This document shows, piece by piece, positions 1,076 to 22,450 of a stretch of DNA of 26,093 nucleotides. Where the stretch lies: positions 1 through 26,093 of IMG/VR virus record IMGVR_UViG_3300042319_000601. One strand, given 5' to 3'. Source of the DNA: a virus. The stretch's first letter is position 1; each line of letters starts with the position of its first letter. A program made the translations under genes and the position numbers. The notes under the pieces were generated by a model. That model did no database searches. It was not told where the DNA came from and saw only the letters and a program-made list of their open reading frames with translations.

Positions 1076-2797
1076 CTACCAGCGACCCTGAGAGGACCGT
1101 GGGCGCGTGAATTTGCCCCGTCCTGCGGCACCTCCTTTGACCTCCTTGATGAAGGCCTTGTAGGTGTCGTCGCGGAGCTTCTCTTGGTGCCGCTCGAAGG
1201 CGTTTGCCGTGTCCTGCGCCATCTGCTCTGCCCAATACGCCACAGCCATTGAGAGGGCGTCCAGACGGTCGTCATGGGGGAGGCAGCCCCTATCCCGCGT
1301 GAGGCGGGTAAGCTGCCAGAACAGGCTGTATGAGGCCTCGGCGGCGGTCTCGTAGTCCCGGTTGATCACCGTCTGGCACATGACCAATCGGTGCTGCTGC
1401 ATGACAGGCTCCAGAGTGTCCGCGATGCGGGCCTCCTTCTGCTTCGAGTGGTTCACCTCTTCGACCTGACAGCGATACTGGCCGCGCTTGAGGGCCGACT
1501 GCAGGAGCTTGGCGAACATGCCGCCGCCGAAGTTGCCTTCCACGAGGATGACGTTGACCTTCTGCGCCTTGGCGATGTTGACCAGCTTATCCAAGGTGGC
1601 GTCCTCATAGCCACCGTCGAGGCCCCCGGCTGCGGTGCAGAAGATCGTCCCCGCGAGGTGCTTGACCACGGCGTAGGCAGTCTCGTCCTTGCCCCGGCCC
1701 GAGGGGTCGATGGCCATCACGCTGCCGCTGTAGGGCTGGAACTCCTTGGAGATGAACATCGGGCGGAAGAACTTGTCGCCGGGGAGGCCGCAGATGTGGA
1801 CCCCTTCGACCGAATACTCCTGAGACCCGGCCCACGCCAACTGCATCGGCCCCATGTGAGGGTCGAGCGGCATCGTGATCAGGTCCGACAGCTTCAAGGG
1901 GAACCTGTTGGCATCGTTCAGGGCAGTGTTCAGCATGAACTGGAGGGCGAAGCCTGCCAGCCCATACGACCGGGCGCGCTCTGCAAGGTCCACATCGGTG
2001 AACCGCTTGGGGTCCGTCGAGCTTCCTGCAGGTTGCCCCTTCTCGATCAGCCGGAAGATGTAGGGGGCGAGTTGCCCTTGGTAGACCGAGGGGTCATCAG
2101 GGATACGGGCGGGCCAGATGCGGATGGTGTAGCCCCGCTCAGGGAGCTTGGCATACATCGTCATGGCAGACTGCGGGGTGCCCAGATAGGTGATGATACC
2201 GTTGGGCTTGAGGACCGCGTCGAACTCCTTGACGCTCTCGGAGAGCTTCTCACGGGCACCCTCGGTGGCAGAGTTGTTGAGGGACTCCACGTCGTCAGCC
2301 AGAATTTCATCCGCACGGGAACCCGTGATCTGGCCGAAGATGCCGACGGACTTCATCGACGGGTCTTTCGAGGGGCGCGAGGGGCCGACATCGAAGAACA
2401 CGTTGGAGTCCCGCTGGCCGTCACCGGGCTGCAGGTGGTGCAGGAGGGGCATCTCTGCGATCAGCCGCTTGACGAACCGGGAGAAGTCGTCGGCGGTGTT
2501 CTTGGTCGCGGAGACAACCATGATCTTCCACTCGGGATTGCAGTAGAAGCGCCAGCACACGAAGGCGGCATAGACCCACGTCTTGCCCACACCCCGGAAG
2601 GCTTGGACCATCTTCCGGCGCGGGCCGTGCTGCATGAAGTGAGCGATGTCGTATTGGACCGGGGTGGGTTCCGGCAGGCCGAGGTGCTTCCAGACGAGGA
2701 ACAGGAACGCCCTAAAGTCCTTCCGAAGTGTATCCTCGACGGTCCTTTCCTTGGCCCTCCGCTGTTGGCGGGGGAGGTGATCGCTTTCAGGTATCAT
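1076..2797 (-). CDS. terL: Terminase large subunit (T7 gp19-like)
   Basis: This is the packaging motor ATPase and nuclease that cuts the DNA concatemer and drives genome into the prohead. The 573 residues closely follow T7 gp19 (586). The Walker A motif FRGVGKT lies at about 67-73, the Walker B region SRADEILADDVE at 160-171, and the LGTPQ coupling motif at 205-209. The RNase H-like nuclease residues are D364 in AIDPSGRGKDET, E420 in VEGNFGGGMF and the aspartates of HDDRLDAL (508-515). The start at 2797 is preferred because GCGGAA precedes it and it overlaps the end of the HNH gene by 11 bases. A frame from 2848 would add 17 residues of no known match. Confidence 0.97.
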   Translation of the reverse strand: MIPESDHLPRQQRRAKERTVEDTLRKDFRAFLFLVWKHLGLPEPTPVQYDIAHFMQHGPRRKMVQAFRGVGKTWVYAAFVCWRFYCNPEWKIMVVSATKNTADDFSRFVKRLIAEMPLLHHLQPGDGQRDSNVFFDVGPSRPSKDPSMKSVGIFGQITGSRADEILADDVESLNNSATEGAREKLSESVKEFDAVLKPNGIITYLGTPQSAMTMYAKLPERGYTIRIWPARIPDDPSVYQGQLAPYIFRLIEKGQPAGSSTDPKRFTDVDLAERARSYGLAGFALQFMLNTALNDANRFPLKLSDLITMPLDPHMGPMQLAWAGSQEYSVEGVHICGLPGDKFFRPMFISKEFQPYSGSVMAIDPSGRGKDETAYAVVKHLAGTIFCTAAGGLDGGYEDATLDKLVNIAKAQKVNVILVEGNFGGGMFAKLLQSALKRGQYRCQVEEVNHSKQKEARIADTLEPVMQQHRLVMCQTVINRDYETAAEASYSLFWQLTRLTRDRGCLPHDDRLDALSMAVAYWAEQMAQDTANAFERHQEKLRDDTYKAFIKEVKGGAAGRGKFTRPRSSQGRW

Positions 2798-3176
2798 GGG
2801 AATGTTCCGCATGTGGATGCGATAGGGCCAGCGAAAGCCGGACCACATCTGCGTGGGTGTTGTTGTTCTTTGCGAGGTTGTAGATACTGACCACGACTTG
2901 TGTGTTCTCTGGTGTGTATCCCTTCCCCGGCTCGATCTGATCTAAGGAGGGGACGAAGGGGCGTGTGCGCCCGGAACCTCGCTGAAAGTCGAAGGGAAGG
3001 CCTGAGACCTGACAGACACCCGCCTCGACGATCTGGTCTACCCAATCTTGGGTGATTGAGAAGGGGAGACCTGCGGATGCTGATCGCTGACGGGCATTAT
3101 TCCAAAGTCGGTAAGTGAAACGGGAGGGGCGCTCATGGGGCGGGATGCCGTATTCGGCGCTTCTCGGTGTTGGCAT
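2787..3176 (-). CDS. HNH homing-type endonuclease, copy 1
   Basis: The 129-residue protein carries a compact HNH-like core: CQVSGLPFD at about 55-63, then SLDQIEPGKGYTPENTQVV at 77-95, ending IYNLAKNNN. This SLD-GY-N layout is typical of small phage HNH nucleases. An AGGA ribosome binding site precedes the start, and the gene ends inside the beginning of terL. It sits between small and large terminase, where T7 encodes its spanins (18.5/18.7), and directly after a terminator. A second protein with the same core follows the DNA polymerase gene (22450-21995). Free-standing homing endonucleases often settle next to conserved phage genes. Target and activity are unknown. Confidence 0.85.
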   Translation of the reverse strand: MPTPRSAEYGIPPHERPSRFTYRLWNNARQRSASAGLPFSITQDWVDQIVEAGVCQVSGLPFDFQRGSGRTRPFVPSLDQIEPGKGYTPENTQVVVSIYNLAKNNNTHADVVRLSLALSHPHAEHSHDT

Positions 3177-3241: not shown

Positions 3242-3529
3242 TCAGTTGTAGGTGGGCCGATCTTCGTGTTCTTCCTCGTCAAAGACGGGGAGATCGGATA
3301 CGGCACCTGCCGCGTTCTTGAGGCGGTCACTGTCGGGTTCTGCCGTCACACCGTTGTCCTTGAGGAACTTGATGGCGGCGGCGATGTAGGCGGCGGGGGC
3401 AGGCATACGGACGGCATTGCCTTCCTTATCAATGGCTTCCACCCCGTTCCTGATGATGTCCGCGAGGGTCTCGGCGGTGATCAGGTGGAGTTGGTCCATC
3501 AGGTCGTCTTTAGCGCGCGACATGGTCAC
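3242..3529 (-). CDS. terS: Terminase small subunit (T7 gp18-like)
   Basis: This 95-residue protein has the size and position of T7 gp18, the DNA-recognition partner of the large terminase. The segment MPAPAAYIAAAIKFLKDNGV at about 42-61 is a common signature of small terminases in T7-like phages, and the C-terminus is acidic (FDEEEHED). The GTG at 3529 overlaps the stop of the preceding gene as GTGA, which suggests coupled translation. An ATG two codons later (3523) is an equally possible start. Confidence 0.88.
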   Translation of the reverse strand: MTMSRAKDDLMDQLHLITAETLADIIRNGVEAIDKEGNAVRMPAPAAYIAAAIKFLKDNGVTAEPDSDRLKNAAGAVSDLPVFDEEEHEDRPTYN

Positions 3530-3807
3530 ATAACTCCCATGAGCTTGAGGATGGTGGGGAACGTCGCCTGACCGAAGAACCCGGCTGCCAGACCCACGCC
3601 GATGGCGATGGCCCCGATGCGGAGCTTGAGGTCTTCGAGGGTCTTGAGGCGCTGTTCGATGTTGGAGAAGCGGGCGTCTGAGGCGTCCTCGACCGCGTTG
3701 ATGCGGGCGTCGTAGGCCGTCAGGGTCTTGAGGATGTTCTTCACGTCCCCCTTCACCTCACCGAGGATGAGTAGGACGGAAGCCTCTTGTGGGCTGGGGT
3801 GTGTCAT
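3526..3807 (-). CDS. Coiled-coil plus single-membrane-helix protein, possible holin or lysis protein
   Basis: The 93-residue protein has a charged helical N-terminal half likely to form a coiled coil (about 18-60, including NIEQRLKTLEDLKLR). A hydrophobic helix rich in Gly and Ala follows at about 63-88. It occupies the T7 gene 17.5 (holin) position between tail fibre and small terminase. The layout resembles XhlA-type membrane-associated lysis proteins. AGGAAACCCCA precedes the ATG, and the gene ends overlapping terS. A better holin match is encoded at 17079-16876, so this one may be a holin, an antiholin or another membrane partner. Confidence 0.7.
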   Translation of the reverse strand: MTHPSPQEASVLLILGEVKGDVKNILKTLTAYDARINAVEDASDARFSNIEQRLKTLEDLKLRIGAIAIGVGLAAGFFGQATFPTILKLMGVM

Positions 3808-3824
3808 TGGGGTTTCCTGAGGGT

Positions 3825-3850
3825 GCCCCTCCGGGGTTAACCGAAGGGGC
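3825..3850 (-). other. GC-rich hairpin without U-tract
   Basis: GCCCCTTCGG and CCGGAGGGGC on the minus strand form a 10-pair stem around a 6-base loop, in the 56-base gap between two genes. No T-run follows, so it is not a classical terminator. It may be an RNA processing or mRNA-protecting structure. Confidence 0.6.
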
Positions 3851-3863
3851 CTCTGTTGTGGGG

Positions 3864-4373
3864 TCAGATCGCGGCGTAGACCCGGAAGAACTCGTCAAGG
3901 TCAGCCTCGGTCGCCTTCCGCATGGATGCCATGAGGAGCAGCAACTGGTTGGACCTGTGGATTTCCGAGGGGCGAAGCGCGCGGGCGCGGGCACGAAGGC
4001 GGGGCATGGAGCCATCCGGGGCGGTGGCCGGGAGGGTGTTGATCGCGGCCTCCACGGCAGCCGGAAGGGAGTTGGCGGAAAGCCATCCCTCTGCCTCGGC
4101 GGGGGTAATCCACTTCTGTTCCACCAATCCCACCACGAGTTGTGAGAAGGAGATGACCTCAGGCACAGGGTTACTCTCTTGAGGTGCGACAACGATAGGT
4201 CCCGTCGCGCTCCACAGCCAATCGGACGCGGGCGGCAGATCGTCGCTGTCGATGATGCGGTGCGGGGTGTCGGCAGGAACCACGGCGGCGGCTACTTCGG
4301 CAATGTCGGCATCAGGCGCGGGGGACACGATGACGATTTTGCCGAGGGGGTTGGGGTAGATGATGATTTGCAT
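3864..4373 (-). CDS. Tail-fibre-linked protein of unknown function
   Basis: This 169-residue protein begins MQIIIYPNPLGKIVIVSPAP and has the segment DTPHRIIDSDDLPPASDW at about 50-67. That pattern recurs in small proteins encoded next to phage tail fibre genes, some annotated as tail assembly chaperones. The C-terminal third is helical and charged (SMRKATEADLDEFFRVYAAI). The start at 4373 follows GAGGACACACCC, ten bases after the tail fibre stop; a longer frame into the fibre gene is rejected. A role in fibre assembly is inferred from position only. Confidence 0.75.
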   Translation of the reverse strand: MQIIIYPNPLGKIVIVSPAPDADIAEVAAAVVPADTPHRIIDSDDLPPASDWLWSATGPIVVAPQESNPVPEVISFSQLVVGLVEQKWITPAEAEGWLSANSLPAAVEAAINTLPATAPDGSMPRLRARARALRPSEIHRSNQLLLLMASMRKATEADLDEFFRVYAAI

Positions 4374-15819: not shown

Positions 15820-16773
15820 TCAGAACAGAGCCAGTTCGACAGCAGCTTCCGGGCGCAGAACGCCGTGGCCGACGGCCAGCTTCGACAGAACCTGCGTCCC
15901 GAGACGGCGCGGGTCGTAGTCCATGCGGGTGGACAGGTCCATCAACTGGACGGTGCCCACGGCGGACTTGTGCATGAACAGGCCAGCGGTCTTCGTGAAG
16001 TTGCCGACATACTTGTTGCCCGTCCCGGCCTGCACACCAGCGGTGATGTTGGTGTTCGGCAGGTTGTTGGTCTTCACGATCTCGATGCCAGCGATCTCGA
16101 AGATCGTGCCCTTCGTCCGGTCGCCCGTGCCGCCGAAGTCACGCGACACGACGTTGTTCGACTGGATGAGACGCCAGTAGCGGGCCGGGTCGAGGTAGCA
16201 GACGCGGTCATACTCGGGGATGTTCTTCTCATCCATGATCTGCGCGGCCTGATAGAAGGCGGCAGCCAGAGTGTCGGCGTTCAGGAAGGCGTTGGCAGCC
16301 GATTCCGTGATCACCGAGCCAGCCGGGGATTGGCCGGGGATGTTGGCGACCGTGGTGCGGGCGGCGAGAACACCAGCCTGCAGAACCTGACGGTCCCAGA
16401 CCTGAGCCAGAACACGACCCACTTCTGCCGAGTAGTGCGAACGCACGTCGTAGTGGGCCTTGGCTTCGTCGATCTCAGCGATGAACACGGGCGACACCAG
16501 AACGTCGTCGATGGTGATCACGCGCTCGTTGTGCTGGATCGATCCGCCCAGAATTTCGTTGCCGGGGACATGGTAGAAGGCCGACGCGCGGCCCATGATC
16601 GGGAACTGAGCCGAGCGGCCATTCGTGATGGCGCGGTTCATGGTCCGGCCTTTGGTGACGTTCTCAGCTTCGAAGATCGTCATCACTTCGCCAGCGAAGA
16701 CTTTCAGGAAGAGGGCTTCGGCATCACCTGCGCCGTTGATCTGACCGAGGCGCGATGCAGTTGCGTTGGACAT
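15820..16773 (-). CDS. Major capsid protein (T7 gp10-like)
   Basis: This 317-residue HK97-fold shell protein is a little shorter than T7 gp10A (345). The N-terminal FLKVFAGEVMTIFEAENVTK, the RSAQFPIMGRASAFYHVPG segment and ITIDDVLVSPVFIAEIDEA are the familiar pattern of T7-type capsids. The C-terminal part (DYDPRRLGTQVLSKLAVGHG, then RPEAAVEL) is also typical. AAAGGAAATACC precedes the ATG. I see no slippery site or extended frame for a gp10B-type product. A 100-base leader separates it from the holin-region gene, and a terminator follows, as expected for the most abundant protein. Confidence 0.97.
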   Translation of the reverse strand: MSNATASRLGQINGAGDAEALFLKVFAGEVMTIFEAENVTKGRTMNRAITNGRSAQFPIMGRASAFYHVPGNEILGGSIQHNERVITIDDVLVSPVFIAEIDEAKAHYDVRSHYSAEVGRVLAQVWDRQVLQAGVLAARTTVANIPGQSPAGSVITESAANAFLNADTLAAAFYQAAQIMDEKNIPEYDRVCYLDPARYWRLIQSNNVVSRDFGGTGDRTKGTIFEIAGIEIVKTNNLPNTNITAGVQAGTGNKYVGNFTKTAGLFMHKSAVGTVQLMDLSTRMDYDPRRLGTQVLSKLAVGHGVLRPEAAVELALF

Positions 16774-16880
16774 GGTATTTCCTTTACAGGGATAGTCCCG
16801 ATTGTGGATGCTTTGGGACGTGAGAGGGGGTTCCCCCGGCTCCGTGGAACCGAGGGTGGGCCTAAGGACGCACCTTTAGG
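16774..16880 (-). promoter_or_regulatory. Capsid gene leader with short hairpins
   Basis: This gap of about 100 bases is long for this compact genome. It holds CCTAAAGGTGCGTCCTTAGG (16880-16861), a bulged hairpin across the preceding stop codon, and a GGTTCC/GGAACC inverted pair. T7 has promoter phi10 here, but I could not find the AATTAACCCACACCATAG core. A diverged promoter or an mRNA processing site remains possible. Confidence 0.35.
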
Positions 16881-17079
16881 CGGGGGACAGGGTCAGCCTG
16901 CGATAAAAGGCCTTTGCAGCCAGCTTGCGCTCGACCAGATACCAGCCGAGGGTGACCAGCGACATGCCAGCGCCAACGACCAGTTCAACGCCAGCGGCGT
17001 CGATCACGCCCTTGGCAACGAGGGCACCAGCGCCAAGCTGGATGAGGTGACGCAGAGCGCCGATAACAGCCACTTGCAT
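16876..17079 (-). CDS. Holin (nested in frame)
   Basis: An internal ATG preceded by AAAGGAACCCACC, one of the best ribosome binding sites in the window, opens a 67-residue protein. Residues 3-29 (VAVIGALRHLIQLGAGALVAKG) and 31-50 (ELVVGAGMSLVTLGWYLVERK) are hydrophobic helices joined by a short DAAG turn, and the tail is basic. The RHL-GG-LVAKG-DA pattern is that of small two-helix phage holins, and T7 holin gp17.5 is also 67 residues. Holins form membrane holes that time lysis. Lying between scaffold and capsid is unusual for a T7-like phage. Confidence 0.78.
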   Translation of the reverse strand: MQVAVIGALRHLIQLGAGALVAKGVIDAAGVELVVGAGMSLVTLGWYLVERKLAAKAFYRRLTLSPA

Positions 17080-17295
17080 GGTGGGTTCCTTTCGGGGTTT
17101 GGGTTTAGGCACGGCCTTCGGGGCGACCCTTGGGGTCACCTTCGGAGTTGGCCGAGGGGTTGGTTTGGGGGCCACCTTAGCGGGGGCCGAGGCGGCAGGC
17201 TTTCGGGTCATCACCTTGATGATGGCCTTCTTCGCCTGCCGTTTCAGGACTTCTCTTGCGGCGGTCCTGACGAGGCCACGCACGAGGCGCTTCAT
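16876..17295 (-). CDS. Cationic Pro/Lys-rich protein with C-terminal holin-like domain (long form)
   Basis: The 139-residue frame starts at an ATG overlapping the scaffold stop as TGATG, a sign of coupled translation. Residues 1-32 are strongly basic (KRLVRGLVRTAAREVLKRQ). Residues about 33-70 are a PKPTPRPTPKVTP-type linker. The last 67 residues are a two-helix membrane domain with its own ribosome binding site (see the nested gene). The long form would attach a charged, possibly nucleic-acid-binding arm to a holin. Alternatively the upstream part and the holin were once separate genes that became continuous. The function of the N-terminal part is unknown. Confidence 0.65.
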   Translation of the reverse strand: MKRLVRGLVRTAAREVLKRQAKKAIIKVMTRKPAASAPAKVAPKPTPRPTPKVTPRVAPKAVPKPKPRKEPTMQVAVIGALRHLIQLGAGALVAKGVIDAAGVELVVGAGMSLVTLGWYLVERKLAAKAFYRRLTLSPA

Positions 17296-18053
17296 CACAT
17301 GATGGACGAGCGTGACAGCTTCGCTTCGACGGCGGCACGGAAGGCCGGGTCTTTGGCGTAGCGCGGGTCACGCATATCTTCCATCATCTGCGGAAGGGAC
17401 TCGTAGACATCCGTCGCGCCACCGCTGCGGCCACCGCCAATGAGGGCTGGGGTGTTCCGGCCAGAGGCAACGAACTTGGACTTGAGGCCGTCGAGAGCCA
17501 GCTTGATCTGCTCCTCGCTGCCCGAGTCGATGACGCTGTTGAACGCCTCGGCTTCGGCTGCGGTGATACCACCAGCGGCAGCCCACGAGACCATCTGGTC
17601 GAACACTTCCTTGCCACCGACGTGGCCCTGAACGCGGGCCGTGAGGGCTTCCCCGAGGGCCTTCTGGCCTTCGATGTAGGCGTCAGCCATTGCGCGGGGG
17701 ATGCCTGCCTTTTCGAGGGCGGCGTAGTCCGCATCTTCCAGAGTTCCGCTTTCCAGAACCTTCGCTTCCAGCGTGGCCAAGTCCAGACCCGCAGCCTTCA
17801 CCGCATCAGCGGCAGCAGCATTGGCGTCGGCATTGTCAGCCGGGGCGGCGTCAGGCTTCTTCGTGGCAGCCGCATAGGCAGCAGCCAGTTCTTCCGGGGT
17901 GTTGAAACCCTCGGGCAGCCAAGCGGGACGCTCAGGGGTGTCACCCTCAGGGGACTTCGCTTCCGGCTCACGGCCTTCGGCTTTGGCCACCATCGCTTCG
18001 ATGTGTGCCGGGTCTTCTGCGGGCTTGGCCGACTTGATGACGACTTCGGTCAT
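17295..18053 (-). CDS. Capsid assembly scaffolding protein (T7 gp9-like)
   Basis: This 252-residue acidic, Ala/Glu-rich protein lies just upstream of the capsid region, as T7 gene 9 (307) does. It has the typical disordered N-terminus (EDPAHIEAMVAKAEG, PEGFNTPEELAAAYAA) and helical middle. The C-terminal VYESLPQMMEDMRDPRYAKD and PAFRAAVEAKLSRS segments are the clearest match to T7-type scaffolds; this end contacts the capsid protein. AGGAAGTAACGC precedes the ATG, three bases after the 54-aa gene ends. Confidence 0.93.
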   Translation of the reverse strand: MTEVVIKSAKPAEDPAHIEAMVAKAEGREPEAKSPEGDTPERPAWLPEGFNTPEELAAAYAAATKKPDAAPADNADANAAAADAVKAAGLDLATLEAKVLESGTLEDADYAALEKAGIPRAMADAYIEGQKALGEALTARVQGHVGGKEVFDQMVSWAAAGGITAAEAEAFNSVIDSGSEEQIKLALDGLKSKFVASGRNTPALIGGGRSGGATDVYESLPQMMEDMRDPRYAKDPAFRAAVEAKLSRSSIM

Positions 18054-21492: not shown

Positions 21493-22002
21493 TCAGCCTC
21501 GCTCTTTCGCTTTGCGTTCCCGCTCCCACTTCCCGGCCAGACCACCTCCATTGAAGAAGTCCTTGATGGCTTGGAGCTTGCCGCCCGAGGCAGCGGGTTT
21601 GGCTGCGGGCTTCGGCTTCGGTTTCCCGTCGGTGATGCCAGCAGCTTCGCGGGACTTGGTGCGCCGCGCTGCAGCCTCGGCCTTGGCCGCTTCCATGCGG
21701 CTGGCGTTGGTCTCAGCGGGTTTCGGCTTGGGGCCTTGGGTCGGCTTGGTCGTCGGCTCGAACTGCGCTTGGCGGGCCGTCGGCTTGGCTGCGGGCTTCG
21801 CCGGGGCTTTCGCTTCGGGACGGGGCTTGGGCTTCGTGGCCGGGGCCTTGGCCTCAGGGCGGGCCTTGGGGCGCGTCGGGGAGGACTTCGCGGTGTCCTC
21901 CTTGGTGTTCGTGGAGTAGGACTTGCCACCCCACTTGAAGGTCTTCCCCGGTCCCATTTTCTTGCGGGCGGCGGCGAAGGCCTGAGCGAAGGTCTCAGCC
22001 AT
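21493..22002 (-). CDS. Lys/Pro/Ala-rich protein of unknown function
   Basis: The 169-residue protein starts with a structured segment, ETFAQAFAAARKKMGPGKTF then KWGGKSYSTN, a motif I have seen at the ends of other phage proteins. It continues as a long low-complexity linker of PEAKAPA and KPKPAAKPA repeats, then ends with a helical basic tail (KLQAIKDFFNGGGLAGKWER). It is strongly basic and may bind DNA. AAAGGAACAGCCA precedes the ATG, which overlaps the HNH stop. The function is unknown. Confidence 0.8.
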   Translation of the reverse strand: MAETFAQAFAAARKKMGPGKTFKWGGKSYSTNTKEDTAKSSPTRPKARPEAKAPATKPKPRPEAKAPAKPAAKPTARQAQFEPTTKPTQGPKPKPAETNASRMEAAKAEAAARRTKSREAAGITDGKPKPKPAAKPAASGGKLQAIKDFFNGGGLAGKWERERKAKERG

Positions 22003-22450
22003 TGGCTGTTCCTTTCATCCAGTTGGTGTTGATGTGGCGCTCGAAGAACTCAGCCACCAGCCGAAGCTCTTGGATGGTTGCGTTGTTCTTGATGCGGTTC
22101 GCCCGGTTGCTGATCACCAGCACGTTCCCCGGCACATAGCCGAGAAGGGGGACGACCCGGTCGAGCGAGGGTGAATTGTCCGAGGCCTGAGACTGCCCAA
22201 CGAGCAGAGGCAGACCCAAGACAGGGCAGAGTTGCGGGATGGTGATGTCATCAGCGGTGAGGCTGAACGGCACCCCTGCGGTGGCAGCACGGGCTTTGGC
22301 AGCCCGCACCATCTTCACAGCCACGTCCCGAAGGTTAGTGGCACTCTGCCCAGTTCGAGCCGATCTTGTATTCGGCGTCGAGGGGGCAGCGGAAACCGTA
22401 GTAACGCTCGGTCTCTCCGATTGCCCATTTCGAGATTTCCCCGATTTCAT
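21995..22450 (-). CDS. HNH homing-type endonuclease, copy 2
   Basis: The protein carries AKARAATAGVPFSLTADDI, CPVLGLPL, then SLDRVVPLLGYVPGNVLVIS and NRANRIKNN. These line up with the core of the HNH protein at 3176-2787 (SAGLPFSIT, CQVSGLPFD, SLDQIEPGKGYTPENTQVV). The start is uncertain. An ATG at 22450 has GAGGAACTGGCCC before it but lies inside the polymerase gene, giving 151 residues. Starts at 22324 (GTG) or 22312 (ATG) would leave only the domain. The position directly after the polymerase gene fits a homing endonuclease. Confidence 0.8.
   Translation of the reverse strand: MKSGKSRNGQSERPSVTTVSAAPSTPNTRSARTGQSATNLRDVAVKMVRAAKARAATAGVPFSLTADDITIPQLCPVLGLPLLVGQSQASDNSPSLDRVVPLLGYVPGNVLVISNRANRIKNNATIQELRLVAEFFERHINTNWMKGTANG

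Follow-up and report, generated by a model that had tools for sequence, protein, structure and literature searches.

Two in-frame starts are a known device of holin genes. In phages lambda and 21, an antiholin is made from a start a few codons upstream of that of the holin, adding positive charge (PMC9636201). In TcdE of Clostridioides difficile, a lineage-specific extension of 24 residues, present in low amounts, inhibits lysis (PMC6200909). The position of lysis genes is likewise described for phages of the T7 type: in JG068 they lie at the right end, an order that its authors call syntenic with T7 and phiKMV (PMC3765740).

How does the present locus compare? The window, by which we mean the whole 26,093-base IMG/VR virus record, covers part of the genome of a T7-like podovirus, the early region excluded, and has its genes encoded on the minus strand. 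Like lambda S105/S107 and phage 21 S68/S71, its holin gene has two in-frame starts and a longer product with extra N-terminal positive charge. Those extensions measure two to three residues, however, whereas the arms in the window phage and two relatives, L003 and L004, measure 42-72, and the long start of the window lacks a Shine-Dalgarno (SD) sequence and overlaps the scaffold stop. TcdE is also a holin with an N-terminal extension from an upstream start, but that extension has 24 residues, the protein has three transmembrane segments, and it works in bacterial secretion without scaffold coupling. With JG068 the window shares the T7-like gene order and a second holin-like gene before terS, as JG068 gp42; it differs in carrying a further holin gene between scaffold and capsid. 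Arm length, arm variability and scaffold coupling are thus what is unusual here among dual-start holins. Our best explanation, to which we give an even chance, is a two-start holin gene whose scarcer, scaffold-coupled long form delays lysis.

The holin reading frame and its two starts

Family matches in the window cover portal, scaffold, a 139-aa holin ORF, capsid and nozzle/tail tube proteins. The nearest named capsids in INPHARED, from Pseudomonas LUZ100, Bordetella BB8, Rhizobium phages and roseophages, are at most 56% identical. The locus contains the following features.

17295..18053, minus strand: scaffold gene for capsid assembly (PF05396), with a stop that overlaps the long holin start
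16876..17295, minus strand: long ORF (139 aa) composed of the cationic arm and the holin; ATG 17295 shares TGATG with the scaffold stop and lacks a Shine-Dalgarno
17080..17295, minus strand: 72-aa arm with a helix predicted for residues 2-29 (low-confidence model) and a Pro/Lys-rich linker after it; net charge +20
17080..17095, minus strand: internal ribosome-binding site CCGAAAGGAACCCACC; CGAAAGG-N8-ATG kept in L003 and L004
16876..17079, minus strand: 67-aa short holin with two hydrophobic helices; matches PF23987 Phage_holin_10
15820..16773, minus strand: major capsid gene, PF21703, downstream of the holin

The initial annotation had proposed a holin nested in frame within a longer cationic ORF at 16876-17295. 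The coordinates are correct, the strand being minus, and the nesting is borne out. PF23987 matches residues 76-124 with E 2.6e-14 (53.4 bits) in the long form and 5.3e-15 (55.6 bits) in the short one, against a curated cut-off of 27 bits, and the short form is almost certainly a holin. Members of this family, that of Pam3 gp28, have two hydrophobic helices in a core of about 50 residues; the proteins of the window, L003 and L004 differ from them by the 42-72-residue N-terminal arm, which falls outside the Pfam domain. A structure model of the long form, indicative at a mean pLDDT of only 59, has a helix at 2-29, an unstructured linker, and helices at 73-94 and 100-135, the former starting with the internal Met. 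In line with these two model helices the holin has two hydropathy peaks, of 1.66, which gives the two membrane helices of class II; an N-in, C-in topology, as suggested by the basic N- and C-termini only, would go with that class. In Foldseek, the best BFVD match was a 54-residue holin (TM-score 0.86 by target length, E 0.078). A sequence search of the PDB returned only two engineered proteins over 18 residues, which we judged to be composition matches.

Which of the two starts would ribosomes prefer? The upstream ATG (17295) overlaps the TGA of the scaffold gene (ATGTGATGAAG), and the in-frame internal ATG at 17079, with AAAGGAACCCACC, yields 67 aa; it is preceded by CCCCGAAAGGAACCCACC and reads GAAAGGAACCCACC-ATG. 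SD pairing at the internal start amounts to -5.6 kcal/mol, equal to that of the capsid gene, and at the long start to +1.2 kcal/mol, that is, no SD, in a region where nearly all neighbouring genes have one of the AGGA type. For the window, L003 and L004, respectively, the short starts score -5.6, -5.4 and -3.9 against +1.2, -3.3 and -2.4 for the long starts. Of the two starts that had been called well supported, then, the internal one is, and the long one relies on stop/start coupling. This contrast in SD strength predicts the short form as the chief product. Synthesis of the long form would require re-initiation after the scaffold stop, and, as its start lacks an SD, the long product is probably minor. 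That it is made we consider likely.

In the predicted RNA folds the internal SD is unpaired or only weakly paired, and folds around both starts are no better than those of shuffled sequence (z −1.3 to 0.5), which leaves a regulatory hairpin of the lambda type unsupported. These signals bear on a second reading, in which only the short holin matters: the upstream ATG would be a coupling relic or a leader, ribosomes leaving the scaffold gene would hold the transcript unfolded as far as the internal SD, with the arm peptide as a neutral by-product. The contrast between an SD-less long start and a strong short start is what such a leader predicts, but there is no RNA structure masking the internal SD for upstream translation to open.

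Conservation and coding signal of the arm

The capsids of L003 (a 39.8 kb contig) and L004 are 77% and 76% identical to that of the window, and both phages repeat its layout. The scaffold stop overlaps an ATG (TAATG in L003, TGATG in L004), the frame then runs free of stops for 49 and 42 codons, respectively, and CGAAAGG-N8-ATG and a Holin_10-like protein follow. The holin parts are 38% and 48% identical to that of the window; against PF23987, L004 scores 48.3 bits, and L003 falls under the cut-off of 27 at 18 bits. Together with the window this gives three arms, 72, 49 and 42 codons long, each in frame with its holin and free of stops. In base-shuffled sequence a stop-free arm arises with a chance of 0.13-0.24 per phage, the frame requirement not yet counted, and since the same layout recurs in L003 and L004 we regard it as more than chance. 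A third relative, L020 (a 39.7 kb record), carries a Holin_10-like gene in the same slot (18.6 bits, again under the cut-off), with an in-frame stop just upstream and no arm. Both starts are therefore conserved in two of the three relatives with this holin type in the slot. A frameshift between arm and holin, named beforehand as grounds for discarding the dual-start idea, is absent from L003 and L004, and L020 merely lacks the arm, which indicates that the arm is dispensable.

How far does this design extend? Searches of INPHARED phages by tblastn with the long form, the short form and the L004 holin gave no matches. Profile A2 found no relative among genome contigs, and among viral contigs it recovered only L003 and L004; A4 diverged too far to be searched as a pattern. 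Neither the L004 long form nor alignments of scaffold and portal, used as queries, brought an additional arm-bearing phage. Arm-bearing genomes were thus found in three cases only, the window, L003 and L004. The two-start design is conserved in a small clade; its function we infer. On an unrelated contig, L002 3998-4213 (plus strand), a Holin_10 protein has two Met residues 13 residues apart with basic residues between them (MGLFKRNPNKPNLM), which could be a short dual start within this family.

Is the arm translated? With the SD region left out, GC3 is higher than GC at codon positions one and two when each of the three arms is read in the holin frame (z 2.1, 1.4 and 3.3; combined z 3.9, p about 5e-5). 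Codon scores of the arms (full score) exceed 98–100% of off-frame windows; they are low against real genes in general and, in the window and L004, below nearly all real gene windows. This fits a translated but little-constrained segment. The longer form carries extra N-terminal positive charge in each phage: +20 in the window (p 0.002 against shuffled sequence), +12 in L004 (p 0.008) and +6 in L003, the last within chance. The arm sequences are mostly unrelated, and their length is not conserved either. One element is shared: the linkers APAKVAPKPT (window) and APTRVAPKPT (L004) are homologous in the same frame (protein shuffle p 0.001, DNA p<0.001), and their distances to the internal ATG differ by a multiple of three.

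For a neutral leader peptide, one would expect an arm that is little conserved, missing in L020 and weak in codon usage, as observed; one would not expect in-frame GC3 periodicity in three phages, an in-frame homologous linker, or the cationic bias of the window and L004 arms. Taken as a whole, we see the reading in which only the short holin matters as a possibility of the lesser kind. A modular arm of variable length could also be an independent small gene fused in frame, or both forms could act as holin with no regulatory difference between them; the arm as a separate gene was found in no relative, and we think this very improbable.

A proposed delay of lysis by the long form

Under our preferred explanation of a lysis-delaying long form, the internal start at 17079 with its strong SD would supply the working 67-residue two-helix holin, and ribosomes ending the scaffold gene would re-initiate at the overlapping ATG 17295 to give a smaller amount of the 139-residue form, with its cationic, partly disordered arm on the cytoplasmic side. 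This form would enter holin oligomers and be slow or unable to trigger, so that lysis is delayed, and its supply would follow scaffold translation. The proposal builds on the holin family match, both starts, the strong internal SD, the design in three phages and the coding signal of the arm, and would add to these the topology, translation of the long form, inhibition and a role in timing. By analogy with lambda, phage 21 and TcdE, slowing of the holin is the most likely effect of the long form, although we rate actual inhibition as evenly balanced. If the holin is of class II (N-in), a cationic N-terminus would be no bar to insertion as such, and TM1 held inward, or interference with oligomers, would more plausibly be the cause. 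The arm may keep TM1 cytoplasmic, crowd the oligomer or bind the inner leaflet. Against the proposal stand the armless Holin_10-like gene of L020, the weak codon usage of the arm in the window and L004, the L003 charge within chance, the finding of only three arm-bearing genomes, and a second holin-like gene.

In its full form, in which a holin is inhibited by its own long isoform through termination-reinitiation from the scaffold gene and the delay of lysis tracks scaffold synthesis and, through it, head assembly, the idea is speculative and rather doubtful. Such coupling would let lysis timing sense head production simply. That three phages retain an in-frame arm of 42–72 residues whose sequence varies almost freely would point to bulk charge, and not a specific sequence, as sufficient for control.

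The scaffold–capsid gap and a second holin-like gene

Does the position of the gene call for an explanation of its own? The initial annotation had noted the place in the structural block and suggested that the arm could tie lysis timing to head assembly. In 70 loci where one contig carries both scaffold and capsid, the gap holds an SD-preceded hydrophobic ORF in at least 25, compared to 1 in the antisense control; the threshold for such ORFs misses some three-helix holins, which makes the count a lower bound. We therefore reject the view that the location alone is anomalous, and since the gap carries lysis genes in many relatives, no such link is needed. Its contents include a GTA-type three-helix holin (PF11351, phrog_3427) and short two-helix proteins. 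Read by eye, the gaps of L021, L023 and L155–L160 hold whole lysis cassettes of a two-helix holin and an Rz-like protein with an embedded lipoprotein (in L155 at 3613-4199), and L129 5733-6491 is a muramidase-like ORF. Lysis genes thus recurrently occupy the interval between scaffold and capsid in these phages. In the part of the literature that was searched, no paper describes them there for this group. Seen as a slot for exchangeable lysis genes, the gap offers a useful annotation rule for metagenomic T7-like phages.

The same comparison weighs on a further reading, in which the long form is itself the working protein, a holin tethered by its arm to nucleic acid, scaffold or inner leaflet, so that hole formation is tied to head assembly. 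A long start coupled to the scaffold gene, the basic arm of the window with its amphipathic helix, and separate small basic proteins in the same gap of other relatives would suit a tether. The arms, however, are mostly unrelated and offer no conserved binding surface, and the gap carries unrelated holins and whole lysis cassettes without arms; we consider this reading unlikely.

Our preferred explanation of a long form that delays lysis must also accommodate another gene.

3526..3807, minus strand: second holin-like gene, directly before terS (phrog_891); coiled-coil-like N-terminus, one hydrophobic helix

Its place just before terS we take to be that of T7 gp17.5. The positional counterpart in the L003 phage matches the phrog_689 holin (E 2.8e-4). 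Lysis here may involve two membrane proteins, and the presence of this gene weakens the claim that the ratio of long to short form alone sets the timing. In the L003 phage, whose record is near-complete, the endolysin is a T7-type amidase (phrog_822) with no evident signal or SAR segment (peak hydropathy only 1.2), so that a hole-forming holin would be needed.

The gaps of roseophage-like and marine phages contain small, very basic proteins with a common start such as GLYANI.

L013 3738-3872: small very basic gap protein (phrog_16028)
L014 3401-3565: small very basic gap protein
L031 4107-4274: small very basic gap protein
L052 3609-3767: small very basic gap protein

We considered the arm as a fusion with these roseophage proteins (phrog_16028) and dropped the idea, as there is no sequence match. 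Elsewhere in the window, a 169-aa protein at 21493-22002 (minus strand) has long linkers rich in Pro, Lys and Ala, with a composition like that of the holin arm, and has no PHROGs match. Two ORFs, 2787-3176 and 21995-22450 (both minus strand), look by eye like small HNH-type endonucleases; one of the two lies between terS and terL and overlaps the terL start.
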